This document shows, piece by piece, positions 192 through 14,729 of a stretch of DNA of 20,611 nucleotides. The stretch spans positions 1 through 20,611 of the IMG/VR virus record IMGVR_UViG_3300042987_001774. One strand, written 5' to 3'. The stretch comes from a virus. The notes under the pieces are model-generated. The model was not told the DNA's origin and searched no databases. It was given only the letters and a program-made list of their open reading frames with translations. Both the position numbers and the translations under genes were made by a program. How positions within the stretch are numbered: position 1 is the stretch's first letter; every line of letters starts with the position of its first letter.

Positions 192-2117
192 TCAAAATGC
201 AATGGATACATTAAATTCGTCTACGGTTCCACTGACATTAGTAATCTTAAGCCAGATATAATATCCGGAAGCAATCGGTTGGTTTTGAATTGCAGCCGAA
301 TCTCCCGTAGTTGAATTAGTTACTGTATCTGGAGCCATGGCTAAAGTACCTGATGTACTCCGATCGCTAGCATAGCGTATTTCATAAGTAACACTAGGTG
401 TTGAGCTCCCCTGCACTATTCCAATTACAGAAGAAAACGTAATCTCTCTATCTGTTCTAAAAAGCGTAAAGCCATCACCAGTTTGTGGTGCAGCAATAGT
501 AATGCTACGTGGAGAAGCATTTGGTAGCGTAATAGGTTGCCAGCGCTGAAAAGCTTCTGTCCAACCCAAGTATTGAAGATTAGAAGCACCTAGCCCAACA
601 TCAACATCATGACAGTCAGCAATGTTGCGACCCGTTTCAGCCCTTACAAAAAGAATGCCATTTGTAGGATGTGACTTAATAACAGCAGCAGCGGCAATCT
701 TTAGATTTGGGGCTTCTGGTTCTGTTAATTGAAATTCACCAGGATTTGTTGGGCTTAACCAAAGGACCGAATCTTCGGGAAAAGCACTCGTATCAACATT
801 ACGTACCTTGCCTAATGTTGTGACATACCCTACAGCACCGATTGCAATAGGCTCTGTAGCCACGCCAAAAAATACATAGCCAGGCAAAGTGCCATCGGCT
901 ATCATGTGGGCTATTTCTATGTATCCAGTAGTTGAATCTGCCCCCATGAACATGACGGCTTCACCATCCAGGATATTGTCAGCTGAGGTATTTTTACATT
1001 TGAACGATATTTCTTGACCCAGTTGATACGTTACACCTGGAGTTCCAAGGCGCACGGTTCCTTCTGTGGGATCCCAACTAAGCTCACCAGAACTTGGTGC
1101 TAAGTCTAAAGTTGTATTGATTGCCAGCTTGCTAACCGTTGGGGTTGCAGTCCAGACAGTTGTGTAGTCAGGACCGGCACCACGTGTTAACAGATCATTT
1201 ACGTTACCTCCTGATGCAACTCCAGGGCCTACTGCACCTGTGGCACCAGTAACACCAATAGGGCCTGTAGCACCTGTTACGCCAATAGGACCGGTAACTC
1301 CAGTTGCACCAGTAACACCAACGGGACCTGTAGCACCTGTTACACCAATGGGGCCTGTTTCACCAATTAGCCCAGTTGGACCTACTGCACCTGTGGCACC
1401 AGTAACACCTGTCGCGCCCGTAATGCCAATAGGACCTGTAGCCCCTGTAACACCAATAGGACCGATAGGGCCTGTGGGGCCAGTGACACCGATTGGTCCT
1501 GTTGGGCCAATGGCACCTGTGGCACCTACACCACCTGTATTACCAAGTGGTCCAGTGGCTCCTGTTACGCCAATAGGGCCTGTAGCACCAGTGACACCTG
1601 TTAAACCCTGTGGGCCTGTAGGTCCTTGAGTACCTGTTGGTCCTTGTACGCCAGTAGGACCTGTAACACCAATAGGACCTGTAGGACCCGTGGCACCTGT
1701 AGGGCCGCCAGCTGGGCCTGTAGGACCCGTAGGTCCAATCATTGTATAAACTTTTTCTAAACCATTTGCTGCATATACTTTCCAGGTTCCATCCTGAACA
1801 AGACTCAGCTCTTCTTCTGTTGCTAAGTCACCTTGCCAAATTGTAGATACTGTTGTCCCATTATCATGATTAACTGTCAGTGTATTGGTACCAAGCCCTT
1901 CATTCTTCAGGTAAAGAGTACGTACGTTACGTTGTGTTGTAGTTGCACTAGGACTTGAAACAATAGTAGTTGTTGTTGCCGTAGAAATTAAGGTGTTTGC
2001 TCTACCTGGAACAACTTCACCGGCTACGTTATCAACATAAGAAGCATGTACCTCAATAGCATCAGCACTGCTGGTAACCAGTAAAATACGATCTGATGTA
2101 GAGGTTAATAAAAGCAT
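192..2117 (-). CDS. Collagen-like phage fibre protein
   Basis: A 641-residue fibre. Residues 1-127 form a Thr/Ser/Val-rich N-terminal domain, presumably for virion attachment. A Gly-X-Y collagen-like stalk follows (about 128-299), and then a globular C-terminal region. The stalk breaks register once at 137-138 (Gly-Gly) and then holds 54 uninterrupted triplets dominated by GPT, GPI, GVT and GAT. Threonine in the Y position is typical of bacterial and phage collagens that lack hydroxyproline. Residues about 370-500 (containing GDEAVMF-like and [17 protein letters not shown] motifs) resemble a module often seen in phage tail and head fibres. Residues 535-641 look like a beta-rich tip. It acts on the virion surface and probably mediates adhesion or host contact. 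The ATG at 2117 is followed by [10 protein letters not shown]; the ribosome site is poor. Whether it decorates head or tail cannot be told here. Confidence 0.85.
1221..1736 (-). repeat. Degenerate tandem repeat encoding Gly-X-Y stalk
   Basis: This is a run of 9-nt and 18-nt quasi-repeats inside the fibre gene (read on the minus strand as GGN-NNN-NNN codons). The commonest unit translates as GVTGATGPI or GPTGPIGVT. Near-identical copies differ mostly at third codon positions, as expected for repeats held by protein selection while recombination makes and trims copies. The opposite strand stays open through this stretch only because the repeats avoid stops. Confidence 0.9.
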
Positions 2118-4645: not shown

Positions 4646-5203
4646 ATGGTACAAACAGTATTTCAGTGCAATCGTTGCAATCAACTTTTTGAAAGATTTG
4701 GTAATGCGGCTGCGTGGCATAGAAAAAGAATGCGTGATCGGGGTTATGTGTATTGTTCAAAACAATGTGCTGCATTTAAACATGGCGGCAATCGTGACAA
4801 AACACCTGAATATGGCTCATGGTGTGCCATGAAATCACGTTGTAACCATTCTGGCACTAGTCATTATGCGAGGTACGGAGGGCGTGGTATTACGTATGAC
4901 GCTGCTTGGGAAGACTTTAGTGTGTTTTTAAAAGATATGGGATTTAAACCTGATCCCAAAATGGAATTAGAACGTATTGACAACAATGGAAACTACTGTA
5001 AAGATAACTGTAAATGGGCAACACGAAAAGAACAAACACGTAATCGCGGTGGTAAACGTGCTACACGTCTTTATACCTTCAATGGCAAAACAATGTGCAT
5101 TGCTGATTGGGCAAAAGAAATAGGTATTAAACCCCAATCAATGCAAAAAAGACTAAACAAAGGATGGCCCCTTGAAAAAGCCTTTGCTAAAAACAAATTC
5201 TAA
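4646..5203 (+). CDS. HNH homing endonuclease with zinc ribbon and HTH tail
   Basis: 185 residues, the only convincing gene on the plus strand. The N-terminus carries a zinc-ribbon-like set (C8, C11, C37, C41). Residues about 54-133 match the HNH family typical of phage homing genes: TPEYGSW, YARYGGRGI, then ELERIDNNGNYCKDNCKWAT and EQTRNR. Residues about 143-180 (YTFNGKTMCIADWAKEIG, RLNKGWPLEKAF) look like a NUMOD/helix-turn-helix DNA-recognition tail. Such enzymes cut an unoccupied allele and spread by repair. The gene is free-standing (no intron core was recognised) and opposes all its neighbours. Its ATG sits at the left edge of the inferred insertion with no clear promoter or ribosome site, so expression may rely on antisense transcription. 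Function is confident at family level; the target is inferred to be the flanking gene. Confidence 0.9.
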   Translation: MVQTVFQCNRCNQLFERFGNAAAWHRKRMRDRGYVYCSKQCAAFKHGGNRDKTPEYGSWCAMKSRCNHSGTSHYARYGGRGITYDAAWEDFSVFLKDMGFKPDPKMELERIDNNGNYCKDNCKWATRKEQTRNRGGKRATRLYTFNGKTMCIADWAKEIGIKPQSMQKRLNKGWPLEKAFAKNKF

Positions 5204-5292: not shown

Positions 5293-5604
5293 TTATTGGC
5301 CAAACTGAGAGAAAGCTGCAAATGCTGGAGGTACTTGCATCTTGTCTTGTGCCAATGCTTCTGGATTATTCATCAGGTTTAAAAACCTCTGGAAGGTATT
5401 TCCTCTATGACCACCTTTAGATCTAAATTCACTTGCTCTATTAAACAAGGAGCTGATCAGTGTATTAGGGCGTTCATCAAATGCCGTAGAAGCACCTGCC
5501 GTAGAAATAAAAGGAAGTGATTTGGCTCCAGTGGAATACTGGAGCCAGTCACTTGGTAATGCGTCATCCGAAAGGTAAGAACGCCTTGTAGAAGGTGTAG
5601 CCAT
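5293..5604 (-). CDS. Small hypothetical virion-region protein
   Basis: 103 residues, not recognised. It opens MATPSTRRSYLSDDALPSDW and ends in an Ala/Phe/Gln-rich tail (AFAAFSQFGQ). The middle (FNRASEFRSKGGHRGNTFQ) is basic. Its ATG shares one base with the TAA of the transglycosylase gene (TAATG), so the two are probably translationally coupled. Both proteins begin MATP. No signal peptide or membrane segment is seen. The tight coupling suggests a partner or accessory of the lysozyme-like protein, but this is only context. Confidence 0.7.
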   Translation of the reverse strand: MATPSTRRSYLSDDALPSDWLQYSTGAKSLPFISTAGASTAFDERPNTLISSLFNRASEFRSKGGHRGNTFQRFLNLMNNPEALAQDKMQVPPAFAAFSQFGQ

Positions 5605-6272
5605 TATTGGAACATCTCCAGGGGGTTAATTGAGTGGAGACCATATTGAGTAAATAAATCAGTAGGGCTTAAAATCCCTGACAAAGGTGAAGGTGGCTGT
5701 TGGTTTTGTTTGCGTTCAATCAGTGCTTTAACAACAGAATCAACAAGCATTTGTCCAAAGGAATTGCCTCGTTGAACAGCTTGTGAAGTAGATGTGGCAC
5801 CTAAATCACTTGGTACATCACCAAGTACCCGTCGAGCACTTTCGTAAAGATCGCCACCTTTCTTAAATCGAGGTGCAGCACCAGCAACAGATGTGCCAAA
5901 GGAATCCTTAGCTGTTAAGGAAACATTGGGATTACCCCCTAAGACAGTGGCATAGGCCCGTTCAACACCCATTTCACCGGGTTTAAACCCGCGATCAAGT
6001 AGGAATTGAACAGCGTGAGGAATTTGTTCAGCGCGTGTGTACTTACCGATCTTGGCAGGATCTAAATACTTTTGTCGTTCACCTGGTCCAAATTGAATCA
6101 TGCCGTAGTAGTTACCACCGGCACCACCACGGATGTTTGGATCCATATTAGGACCCGACTCAAGGCTAAGAAAGCCTCCAAATTCGTAAGGATCTAATTT
6201 AAGTTGACGGGCGGCATTAAAAATTGCCATCCGCTCTGCATGTGGAAGAGTACCTACGCGTGGTGTAGCCAT
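5604..6272 (-). CDS. Lysozyme-like lytic transglycosylase, probably virion-associated
   Basis: 222 residues. Residues about 10-125 resemble an SLT/lysozyme-like fold. LDPYEFGGFLSLESG contains the likely catalytic glutamate (E38), followed by the GGNYYGMIQFGPGERQKYL block (the G-x-x-Q-F signature of soluble lytic transglycosylases). Later come AVQFLLDRGF and RAYATVLGG. The enzyme would cleave the glycan backbone of peptidoglycan. With no signal peptide and a place among virion genes, it is more likely an entry enzyme carried in the particle than a lysis endolysin. The C-terminal about 90 residues are Gln/Pro/Ser-rich and may anchor it in the virion. The start at 6272 is preceded by AAGGA about 10 nt upstream. 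Its stop overlaps the next gene. Confidence 0.75.
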   Translation of the reverse strand: MATPRVGTLPHAERMAIFNAARQLKLDPYEFGGFLSLESGPNMDPNIRGGAGGNYYGMIQFGPGERQKYLDPAKIGKYTRAEQIPHAVQFLLDRGFKPGEMGVERAYATVLGGNPNVSLTAKDSFGTSVAGAAPRFKKGGDLYESARRVLGDVPSDLGATSTSQAVQRGNSFGQMLVDSVVKALIERKQNQQPPSPLSGILSPTDLFTQYGLHSINPLEMFQ

Positions 6273-8138: not shown

Positions 8139-8843
8139 TCAACTCATACCAAGTAAAGAGGAATCTAGTAACACGTCTTGGTATGGATTGGCAGCTTGCG
8201 ACAACAAACCTGCGTAAGAAGAAAGAAAACTTTGTGGTTCTCTTTGACGTAGTTTAGATGAGATTGCAGAACTAAGCAGCTGTTCAGTCAGAGAAGGTTT
8301 GTCTTCTTTTGTTGGACGCAGTAGTTCAGTCAACAAAGAAAATGCAGCGCTATCAGAGGATGATTGTTGTGTAGGTTGAGAAGCACCAGTAATTGAACCT
8401 GGTTTACCCAGGGATTGCATATGTCCTACACCAATTTCATATTTGTTATCAGCTGTAGTAAATGTTGCTAAGTTTCCATAACCACCTTGGTTAGCAAGTG
8501 GCTTATAGGTACCAGCTCCTTCAAAATAGATTGGTGTTCCTTCAGGTAAAGCCCAATCTTCTCCACGATGATATGTAGAAGCCCCAGCAGTTGGAGCAGA
8601 GCGATGGCCAAAACCCGAAGTAAGTGTAATCCCTGATTGAGGATTGATGATATATTTGCCAGCACTATCTTTCGTTAATGCTGGAATACGATCCTTACCA
8701 ATGCGAAACCCACTAAGTACAGATCGAATTGTTGCTGGATCAATGTATTGACCACTGGCAATGTCTTTCACATAGACATGTTTATGTGGTCCAGTGGAAG
8801 TCCCTGTGGATCCAACAGTACCAAAATATGTGATGCCAGCCAT
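8139..8843 (-). CDS. M23-type peptidase with circularly permuted motif order
   Basis: 234 residues. M23/LytM peptidases cut peptidoglycan cross-link peptides using zinc. The usual order is H-x3-D, then GYGN, then a catalytic His (AHL), then GSTG-STGPHLHFEV near the end. Here the last block comes first: GTVGSTGTSTGPHKHVYVKD at residues 8-27 (H20, H22), then QYIDP. The rest follows: SGFGHRSAP (76-84), YHRGEDWALPEGTPI (H92, D96), GYGN (121-124) and GVGHM (H141). All five expected metal and catalytic residues are present, only reordered. The C-terminal about 85 residues are Ser/Gln/Leu-rich. There is no signal peptide, and it is placed with virion genes, so it is likely a particle-borne entry hydrolase. 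ATG 8843 is the first possible start after a terminator. Confidence 0.85.
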   Translation of the reverse strand: MAGITYFGTVGSTGTSTGPHKHVYVKDIASGQYIDPATIRSVLSGFRIGKDRIPALTKDSAGKYIINPQSGITLTSGFGHRSAPTAGASTYHRGEDWALPEGTPIYFEGAGTYKPLANQGGYGNLATFTTADNKYEIGVGHMQSLGKPGSITGASQPTQQSSSDSAAFSLLTELLRPTKEDKPSLTEQLLSSAISSKLRQREPQSFLSSYAGLLSQAANPYQDVLLDSSLLGMS

Positions 8844-8870: not shown

Positions 8871-8893
8871 AAAAACCCCTGGTTTCCCAGGGG
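8871..8893 (-). terminator. Rho-independent terminator with GAAA loop
   Basis: On the minus strand, CCCCTGG-GAAA-CCAGGGG is followed directly by TTTTT. It is a perfect 7-bp GC-rich stem with a stable tetraloop and a U-tract. It lies 18 nt after the stop of the helix-hairpin-helix gene and 27 nt before the peptidase start, so it should end or reduce transcription from the capsid block into the hydrolase/tail block. Confidence 0.88.
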
Positions 8894-8911
8894 CTTACTT
8901 TGCACTTTAGA

Positions 8912-12013: not shown

Positions 12014-12979
12014 TCACTCCATTACAAACAGTTTGTTTGCCAGGACTTGAGGTTGAGCTTGGTTGATGACACGCCAAGCATTCTGGGGATCACGCTCCAT
12101 CACTTCGTTAAAAGTGCCCCAGAAGTTTTCAGGCTGCTGAGGAGCAGCGGCAGCAGGAGGAGCAGGGAATTGACCGAGCTGTGGCTGCTGAACTGCTTGG
12201 GTTGGATACCCACGAGTCTCAAGTTGAGTCTCATTTTCGTACACAGGGTACGGGCCTTCTGGACCAAAGAACTTCAGCGTGTAATCGCTGAGGATATCTG
12301 GGTTGGTAAGGATCTCGTTATATGCCAGGTTCTCTTGATGTTCGTTGGTAGCGAACTGGGCATAACCTTGGATTGTATTAGCGGCGCGGTTTCCCCACTC
12401 GACGGCGCTGTCCAGCATTGCCTCCAGATTCAGGGCGTACCCGTTCAGAAGAGCCGGAGCTTCGATCCCGAACGCGTCCATCACCTGACGGCTTTCCTGG
12501 CTCATTCCCAGGTAATCCGCGATTTGCTCCAAGGAGGGAGTCGAGGAGGTTTGGGAAGAGTTGGGCGAGTAATCCTGGCTGGGAGACCAGGTCTGCGTCA
12601 CCGATTGTTGCGTAGCTGGGCTGCTGACCTGACCGTAATTGGCCGGGGTATATGCTGTCGCCGGAGTCGATGGTTGACCCTGGAACGGGGATTGAACTGG
12701 AGCGCTCAGCAGGTTCACTACCTTGTTGAACGCCGATTCCCATGGGTTCGCCTGTGGAGCTTCCGGTTGGGATTGGGGGGCGTACTGAGTAGGGGCTGAT
12801 TGGTAGCTGGGGGCTGCCTGAGGTACCGCTTGGGGGTAGCTGGTACCCACCTGATACGCCACTGGAGCCGGCGCTTGTGTCGCCTGGTAGCTGGGGGCTG
12901 GTGCCACGTAGCTGCTCGGTGCGACGGCCGCTGGTACTTGGCTCGTCTGTGGGATCGATTGGACGGTAGCGTCCTGCAT
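12014..12979 (-). CDS. Putative scaffold protein (overlaps portal 3' end)
   Basis: 321 residues. The N-terminal about 100 residues are Pro/Gln/Ala/Ser/Tyr-rich and disordered. Residues about 100-300 are helical and acidic (ANPWESAFNKVVNLLS, SLEQIADYLGMSQESRQV, NEHQENLAYNEIL). The last residues are helical (NAWRVINQAQPQVLANKLF). A disordered start followed by an acidic helical body ending in a coat-binding helix is the usual phage scaffold plan, and the gene sits between portal and coat. The start is well supported: AAAAGGAG, seven nt spacing, ATG 12979, and an in-frame TGA two codons upstream. Its first 602 nt are also read in another frame by the portal gene. Confidence 0.75.
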   Translation of the reverse strand: MQDATVQSIPQTSQVPAAVAPSSYVAPAPSYQATQAPAPVAYQVGTSYPQAVPQAAPSYQSAPTQYAPQSQPEAPQANPWESAFNKVVNLLSAPVQSPFQGQPSTPATAYTPANYGQVSSPATQQSVTQTWSPSQDYSPNSSQTSSTPSLEQIADYLGMSQESRQVMDAFGIEAPALLNGYALNLEAMLDSAVEWGNRAANTIQGYAQFATNEHQENLAYNEILTNPDILSDYTLKFFGPEGPYPVYENETQLETRGYPTQAVQQPQLGQFPAPPAAAAPQQPENFWGTFNEVMERDPQNAWRVINQAQPQVLANKLFVME

Positions 12980-14729
12980 AACTCATCTCCTTTTGTAGAG
13001 CTTCTAAAGTGCGATACAGATATGGGGTTAAATCCAATCGCGGATCCGCAGCCATCGGTAGATCTGGTGACTGCGGGTGAGGGGTCTGCATCATTCCCCC
13101 CACAAGGCTGGCAAATTTAGAGTATGCACCCTGTAGTTCACCTACCATCCTGAACGGGAACCCCGATAACATCGCGGCCCGCTCTTCATCCGTTTTTGAC
13201 GGGAAGAGGTATTTCAGTGCTTCAATGCTATCAACACCTAACTCCTGCAGGTTGCGTACCACGATGGAGTTATTAAGAATATCTTGAGTTGACTCTTCAT
13301 AAACAGGACCCAACCAGCGCCAGAGACAAGTAACATCGCCGTCTGGAATTAAACCAAGAACACCTGGTGGGATTTGTTCTGTCTTTAGACATGCCATCAT
13401 AAGCTGTTTGACTTTATCTTCAAACATCTTCATGGCGTCGTTATACATCCGCATATCTTCATCTGTTGATTCCTCTGGTAGTTCCAGGGGGCGCTCAAGT
13501 CCTGCAGCTGCAGCAAGCGTTTCTTTAAACAAACGCTCTTCTTGATAAATAATCAATTCAAGGCAACGACAGATGCCATAGGTATAAATGGCATTTGCTT
13601 TCTTCTTGGCTGTAGCGGCAACACGACCAAACAATGATTTGTATTCAGTTGCAGTTACACCTGCAGAGATGGAAAGTTCATCAACGCCACCAAGTGCAGT
13701 ACGAATTTCTTCTCGGTATTGACGTGCAAAAGAATTCTGGTCACCAGTGATTGCATCTGGGACGATGTAACCAACACGATCGTTTGGCTCCAGGTTTGCA
13801 ATGACTCGTGGCACACGGATCTGGCCATCTACACCACGTGATACCGGATCTGATTTGAAGCGAGATTGAGATAAAGCTCCCATCCCAGTGAAGCCAGAGT
13901 TTGCTGCAATGGAAGGGCGTTGAACAACGGAATCACCACCTGCTTCCATCAGGTCTGTCTTAGGCCTGGAAGAAAGAAGGGTTGGATTACCAAAGAATTG
14001 TACATTCTTACGCATGGTACGAACCATTTCATCATGCGTACAAATGTGATTAGCAAGTGCGTCAAATTCACCCGTACCTTCTGTCGAGAAACCTTTGGGA
14101 TTGTTAAAGATTTCAACGCAGGGAATGTATCCGAGTGTGTTTTTAAAAGTCTTTGTTTTACCAGTGGCTACTTGATAGTTTGTATCGAATGAAATCTCAC
14201 CTTCTGAATGAGTTTCTTCAATTGTTTTACGCTTGATGGAAAGACGGATGTAGCGTTTAGCACCCCTTTGACCCATCATTTGTGGACCAGTAAGACTTGA
14301 GTTATCAATGTCCTGCTGGTAACCAAACCCTTGACGTACGCGATAGCTGTAAATGATTACAACTTCATCAAGCTCGCCATCAACGTTGTAAAAGCTACGA
14401 TATTCATGCTTACGAAAGTAATAAAGACGATAGTTATTTTGTGTGGGACGAACATAAAAGATACCCTGGCCATCACAAAGGAAGTAGTCCCAGATGGAAT
14501 CTAAGCGTGTATCAATTTGATTGTATTTGAGTACACGATCAATAAAGTCTTTGCGTTGATTGCCGAAGTTGTCTTGAGATGGAAAGAACTCAACCCCTTG
14601 GCGAATACCAAAGAGTTTCATTTGGGCAAGATGAGACGCAACAATGCCAGTATCAATTGCAGCCCCACCGTCCTTCTCAAGGTAAGAATCAACAATTTCT
14701 TTAAGTCGGGATTTAGCGTCGCCAGCCAT
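12378..14729 (-). CDS. Putative portal protein with overprinted C-terminal tail
   Basis: 783 residues. The core (about 1-580) begins AGDAKSRLKEIVDSYLEKDG. It contains FNNPKGFSTEG-like strands, VGYIVPDAITGDQNSFARQY and a long helical region around 340-450 (NAIYTYGICRCLELIIYQEE). Size and position between large terminase and scaffold fit a portal, the dodecameric ring through which DNA is packaged. No portal signature was recognised, so the call is contextual. Residues from about 584 to the end are Ser/Gly/Pro/Arg-rich without apparent fold, ending GQRRRVGKPRR, and lie entirely within the out-of-frame scaffold gene. The most likely history is an original stop near residue 580 that was lost. ATG 14729 has AAAAGG eight nt upstream. 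Confidence 0.75.
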   Translation of the reverse strand: MAGDAKSRLKEIVDSYLEKDGGAAIDTGIVASHLAQMKLFGIRQGVEFFPSQDNFGNQRKDFIDRVLKYNQIDTRLDSIWDYFLCDGQGIFYVRPTQNNYRLYYFRKHEYRSFYNVDGELDEVVIIYSYRVRQGFGYQQDIDNSSLTGPQMMGQRGAKRYIRLSIKRKTIEETHSEGEISFDTNYQVATGKTKTFKNTLGYIPCVEIFNNPKGFSTEGTGEFDALANHICTHDEMVRTMRKNVQFFGNPTLLSSRPKTDLMEAGGDSVVQRPSIAANSGFTGMGALSQSRFKSDPVSRGVDGQIRVPRVIANLEPNDRVGYIVPDAITGDQNSFARQYREEIRTALGGVDELSISAGVTATEYKSLFGRVAATAKKKANAIYTYGICRCLELIIYQEERLFKETLAAAAGLERPLELPEESTDEDMRMYNDAMKMFEDKVKQLMMACLKTEQIPPGVLGLIPDGDVTCLWRWLGPVYEESTQDILNNSIVVRNLQELGVDSIEALKYLFPSKTDEERAAMLSGFPFRMVGELQGAYSKFASLVGGMMQTPHPQSPDLPMAADPRLDLTPYLYRTLEALQKEMSYAGRYRPIDPTDEPSTSGRRTEQLRGTSPQLPGDTSAGSSGVSGGYQLPPSGTSGSPQLPISPYSVRPPIPTGSSTGEPMGIGVQQGSEPAERSSSIPVPGSTIDSGDSIYPGQLRSGQQPSYATIGDADLVSQPGLLAQLFPNLLDSLLGANRGLPGNEPGKPSGDGRVRDRSSGSSERVRPESGGNAGQRRRVGKPRR
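12987..12994 (-). promoter_or_regulatory. Scaffold ribosome-binding site inside portal gene
   Basis: AAAAGGAG on the minus strand, followed by seven nt and the scaffold ATG. It is the best Shine-Dalgarno match in this part of the window and lies within portal coding sequence. That shows the scaffold frame is translated independently rather than by frameshift from the portal. Confidence 0.85.

Follow-up and report, generated by a model that had tools for sequence, protein, structure and literature searches.

A probable natural circular permutant of the M23 peptidase domain in S-EIVl-related cyanobacterial viruses

The gene at 8139-8843 on the minus strand of the viral DNA analysed here (the window, the 20,611 nucleotides of IMG/VR record IMGVR_UViG_3300042987_001774 from position 1) encodes a 234-residue protein. 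We interpret it as an M23 (LytM/lysostaphin) peptidase domain that has undergone natural circular permutation and bears a tail at its C-terminal end. The protein is probably carried in the virion, where it would serve to open the host wall at entry. Based on sequence comparisons and a predicted structure, we give this reading a probability of about 80%. The gene, whose coordinates include the stop codon, is defined by its open reading frame and by 58 distinct sequences, and a conserved natural circular permutation of an M23 enzyme in the S-EIVl-related cyanobacterial viruses is well supported.

The open reading frame starts with an ATG at 8843, and all of its features lie on the minus strand. 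The half that is C-terminal in canonical M23 domains (the G-strand, GSTG-STGPHKH and DP) comes first, at residues 7-39 (8727-8825). It contains the HxH block GSTGTSTGPHKH at residues 11-22 (8778-8813), with a predicted catalytic H20 and a predicted zinc ligand, H22. The old C- and N-termini are connected by a linker of residues 40-60 (8664-8726), which lies outside the canonical HMM. The canonical N-terminal half is second, at residues 61-145 (8409-8663; HMM positions 12-95), and includes the predicted zinc motif Hx3D, which reads HRGED at residues 92-96 (8556-8570; H92 and D96), the GYGN motif at residues 121-124 (8472-8483) and GVGH at residues 138-141 (8421-8432) with the predicted catalytic H141. 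The variable tail of residues 151-234 (8142-8393) is a proposed virion-loading tail. The first-pass annotation was right that the HxH block stands first in the chain, and it placed H20, H22, H92, D96, GYGN and GVGH correctly, with each expected active-site residue occurring once; the extent it gave for the block, residues 10-22, becomes 11-22. Beyond the active-site histidines, the protein has a single extra one, H80.

A terminator-like hairpin (8873-8896, minus strand) is located just upstream of the gene, and in most homologues the ATG is preceded, at a distance of a few to 27 codons, by an in-frame stop. Together, these indicate that the open reading frame is not the tail end of a longer gene. 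The one exception is a homologue in contig L176, which has 154 codons of open frame upstream of its start. The start region of the homologues (MAG or similar) is conserved.

The swapped order is real, goes beyond a chance order and is not the result of truncation. Against an HMM made from 75 M23 domains with canonical order, the window protein scores 86 bits, and the best of 500 shuffles reaches 6.9 bits. The match consists of two pieces in exchanged order, residues 7-39 aligning with HMM positions 109-139 and residues 62-145 with positions 13-95. The canonical stretch covered by neither piece is about positions 95-108, the loop that directly precedes the G-Q-x-I-G turn, and this gap suggests that the chain was opened at that loop, in agreement with the earlier proposal that the N-terminus is at this turn. 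Pfam likewise splits PF01551 into two stretches on the native protein, with the strongest at residues 91-145 (profile positions 2-55). When the first 57 residues are moved behind the rest, a single match covers positions 2-96 of 96 (E 4e-8). A scan of all cut points with the canonical HMM has its optimum at residues 40-50, within the linker between the halves, where one domain of 92 bits spans HMM positions 12-139 of 142. A missing upstream half in another frame is ruled out by a six-frame scan of the window, which gave no other M23 piece of note (the next best scores 4 bits). A truncated pair or a misassembly is also ruled out, since the order is the same in isolates (S-EIVl and Acinetobacter and Moraxella phages) as in many contigs.

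Homologues were collected by scanning IMG/VR with three queries (the proteins of the window, S-EIVl and L033), which gave 84 loci, some of them overlapping; some searches with the S-EIVl protein used a query that lacked the first 24 residues (start at L002:7962 and not 7890). Of the 84 loci and S-EIVl taken together, 74 passed a motif filter, and with the window they make the 58 distinct sequences. The HxH (or HxD) half is first in all 58, and H20, H92, D96 and H141 are each invariant (58/58). Position 22 is His in 44 of the sequences and Asp in the other 14. H141 pairs with the further catalytic His of canonical domains in the HMM alignment. Eight further loci (L144, L146-L148 and L150-L153) keep the order and H-x3-D and are missing the G of H-x-G-x-D. 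Hence the Hx3D motif, the HxH motif and the further His of the M23 family are all present, and judged by all of the sequence evidence the protein appears M23-like, the linear order Hx3D-H-HxH being the only tested feature in which it departs from the family.

Purifying selection acts on both halves with equal strength. Over 210 pairs with dS near 1, and so near saturation, dN/dS was 0.110 in the HxH half, 0.120 in the Hx3D half, 0.158 in the linker and 0.343 in the tail. Replacement changes are thus suppressed equally in the two halves, which is unlike a decayed leftover.

A structure prediction points the same way. AlphaFold2, given 50 aligned sequences, modelled residues 1-151 as one domain (pLDDT 89.8, pTM 0.84), and the sole region with a pLDDT below 50 is the GTSTG loop at residues 14-17. 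The model would bring the active-site residues of both halves together at one site. Foldseek searches of the PDB aligned 85 columns of lysostaphin 4qpb at 3.3 A, with the Hx3D half, and 83 columns of StM23 9gy1 at 4.0 A, both with weak E-values; these matches cover about half of the domain, as would be expected when an aligner that runs in chain order meets a permuted chain. Foldseek found no full-length PDB match for either model. Family profiles matched the PDB chains 3slu, 6muk, 9m7n and ShyA (6ue4 and 6u2a) in two stretches of reversed order. The Hx3D half of the family profile also matches residues 657-718 of chain E of 9k2v, a solved 1058-aa protein named 'Internal protein'.

We therefore prefer the reading of the first-pass annotation, one domain with moved termini: order and catalytic residues are preserved across the homologues, the rejoined sequence is a complete M23 domain, the constraint is equal in both halves and a single confident model is obtained. 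The canonical chain would have been opened in the loop preceding the G-Q-x-I-G strand, and the old termini would be bridged by a linker of about 20 residues. On this reading, H22, H92 and D96 would bind a single zinc ion, flanked by H20 and H141. The predicted activity is the cutting of peptide bonds of peptidoglycan.

The gene neighbourhood is that of a virion lysin, with the M23 gene inside the structural module. It comes after capsid-, decoration- and HHH-type genes, and next to it on the other side is a conserved gene for a 153-aa protein. S-EIVl, L006 and L162 have the same arrangement, as does the part of L033 that was read. In these comparisons, identity is lower for the M23 gene (36-60%) than for its direct neighbours, the HHH gene (79-88%) and the 153-aa gene (88-96%).

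The same cluster encodes a second hydrolase (5604-6272, minus strand), a lysozyme/transglycosylase-like proposed partner. Its only Pfam match in the window is Phage_lysozyme2 at E 0.044; its ortholog in L019, which is 52.6% identical, matches SLT at E 2.3e-4. The tail of the M23 protein resembles the tail encoded by the gene just upstream in L146 (z 28), L150 (28), L144 (20) and L153 (15), and the upstream-gene proteins of L144, L150 and L153 carry SLT-type Pfam domains. The S-EIVl M23 tail resembles that of its Phage_lysozyme2 protein AHV82234 at z 9.3, and the M23 tails of L006, L019, L023, L162, L165, L160 and L034 resemble the second-slot gene at z 4-8; these scores come from shuffles of a stretch prone to low complexity and are the best of many ORFs, so the weaker values need caution. 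Tail similarity is weak or absent in the remaining loci tested, about half, including the window itself (z 2.9).

The type of enzyme in the second slot varies by phage and includes SLT_3, SLT, Phage_lysozyme2, a PHROG 90 endolysin (L006) and unrecognised types. At L144:3174-3926, L146:840-1577, L150:3087-3926, L153:1802-2551 and L002:10218-10895, the protein in this slot ends in a tail resembling the one on the M23 protein encoded by the same phage. There are also three loci (L141:3355-4113, L142:3512-4267 and L143:3554-4312) in which the M23 domain itself is replaced. Here a tail 66-78% identical to that of S-EIVl is joined to an unrelated domain with an HxxGxAxD...HxH pattern, which had no significant family match (Pfam gives Extensin-like_C alone, at E 0.35) and is perhaps an M15-like, putative metallopeptidase-like domain. 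These patterns suggest that the virion carries two enzymes that cut the wall, one acting on peptide bonds and the other on glycan, whose catalytic domains can be exchanged on a shared tail. The structural-gene neighbourhood, and a tail that in many relatives resembles that of a second, lysozyme-type enzyme, point to a virion-associated lysin that would help to breach the host wall at entry, with a lysozyme/transglycosylase-type enzyme as its presumed partner. We infer the catalysis, the virion location and the role at entry from this evidence.

Some other features of the window deserve mention. A portal-like ORF (783 aa, 12378-14729, minus strand) overlaps a P/A/Q-rich ORF (321 aa, 12014-12979, minus strand) by 602 nt in a different frame. 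In comparisons with L006, L019, L023, L024 and L011, the portal gene shows third-position differences of about 0.44 outside the overlap but 0.12 within it, and first-position differences rise from 0.11 to 0.20; this combination suggests that both frames are constrained. The S-EIVl annotation of the P/A/Q-rich gene covers only its last 402 nt. A 185-aa ORF on the plus strand (4646-5203), opposite to the structural genes around it, appears to encode an HNH-type endonuclease, and a 641-aa protein (192-2117, minus strand) with a long collagen-like repeat (GPTG, GVTG) is perhaps a fibre.

Three other explanations of the M23 gene were considered. The same permuted enzyme could be an endolysin that releases progeny and is not borne by the virion. 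The protein is small, and its Hx3D half has relatives that carry the annotation endolysin. However, in the syntenic contigs the gene is flanked by capsid/decoration-type genes and by further conserved ones, permuted relatives sit inside tape measure and virion structural proteins, and the tail is common with the second enzyme of the same gene cluster, so that we consider an endolysin unlikely, at perhaps one chance in five. A pseudo-enzyme, in which the permuted fold binds peptidoglycan or has a structural role and does not catalyse, would account for the Asp that replaces H22 in the 14 sequences mentioned above and in the tape measure forms. The zinc-ligand position is Asp in the S-EIVl branch and the tape measure forms and is His in 70 of 70 canonical-order loci. 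Yet Asp is able to bind zinc, the other four active-site residues do not vary and the window protein retains every active-site His, all of which make a pseudo-enzyme improbable.

The remaining explanation is that two incomplete M23 domains adjoin each other, either decayed or active through a domain-swapped dimer. Tandem part-domains do exist, since an additional M23 piece precedes the HxH block in the S-TIM5 protein AEZ65701, and a swapped dimer would be compatible with the sequence as well as with the monomer model. Nevertheless, two incomplete domains were not seen in the family: the halves are equally constrained, each active-site residue is single and conserved, an upstream half is absent from the window, and the monomer is confidently modelled as a single domain. 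We regard this explanation as very improbable, and continue with the circular permutant.

The first-pass annotation knew of no described permuted M23, and we also found no description in the literature searched, which took in only a small part of the subscription papers. The permutation is not unique to these viruses, however, since it also occurs in the tape measure proteins of Moraxellaceae phages. In the Acinetobacter and Moraxella phages, these proteins have the same swapped order and the same cut loop, with GISGxSGxxTGxHLDxR followed by SxYGxRKAPxxGASSxHxGID. A control scan of genomes with the shared motif gave 80 loci, of which 69 have a canonical-order M23, three are unclassed and eight are permuted; all eight are Acinetobacter tape measure proteins. 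Several similar-looking tblastn matches (Vibrio Yong MS32, podovirus ctEw122, ACG-2014f, Sf-CH1a and sm033) were of canonical order on reading.

In a tree of 115 domains, in which the permuted ones had been rejoined into canonical order, 29 S-EIVl-like forms and 10 from tape measure proteins fall into one clade, which has a support of 0.84 and includes none of the 75 canonical domains. With a short alignment and canonical sequences drawn mostly from Lachnospiraceae, a single origin of the two permuted groups is likely, short of proof. Cyanophage S-TIM5 displays a more complicated pattern. Its virion protein AEZ65701 (L126:7229-10222) combines an extra M23 piece (Pfam positions 45-79, residues 430-464), a permuted-order M23 consisting of an HxH block and then Hx3D and His, and Phage_lysozyme2. 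Such an arrangement could be a remnant of a tandem duplication en route to permutation. The M23 stretch of S-TIM5 is placed outside the permuted clade, a search for relatives of the segment found none, and the case may be a separate event. As a tentative scenario, to which we give somewhat less than an even chance, one permutation (a tandem duplication with loss of the outer halves, S-TIM5 maybe being an intermediate) gave rise to a phage lineage of permuted M23 that spread among virion proteins, some branches changing from H/D/H to H/D/D, and in the S-EIVl-like phages it became one of several catalytic domains that can replace each other on a shared tail for virion loading.

M23 is among the best-studied families of wall-cutting enzymes, and a conserved natural permutant would show which of the chain connections are dispensable to its fold. 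The permutation explains why in-order domain searches report fragments or one half, and the protein provides a lysin scaffold of natural origin whose termini are new. The tail common to two hydrolases in many of these phages provides a testable handle on how wall-cutting enzymes are loaded.

Compared with known systems, the window protein has the same Hx3D, GYGN, H and HxH as peptidase family M23 (PF01551: LytM, lysostaphin, NMB0315/3SLU and ShyA) and fits the full-length profile once rejoined, but its halves are swapped, its termini lie before G-Q-x-I-G and the old ends are linked. The closest named relative is S-EIVl AHV82231 (KJ410740), annotated 'peptidase M23 family', which is the same gene in the same place with the same permuted order; it is 36% identical over 77% of the query and has Asp at H22, and its annotation is silent on the order. 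The tape measure M23 domains (PHROGs 3519, 1506 and 20119) share the order, the cut loop and the clade with the S-EIVl-like forms, but differ from the window protein in being within a long protein, with a shorter linker and HLD instead of HxH. Virion M23 lysins of the phi29 gp13 type presumably have a common role with it, peptidoglycan cutting at entry, whereas they are described as ordinary M23 enzymes (PMC9662197) and the window protein is a free-standing permutant with its own tail. The same paper gives the M23 motifs Hx3D and HxH and the InterPro domain bounds from Hx3D to HxH, and permutation goes unmentioned. Finally, the circularly permuted NlpC/P60 enzymes (YaeF and LRAT-like; PMC6403190), although they have a cysteine peptidase fold unrelated to M23, are a precedent for permutation in a wall-hydrolase superfamily.
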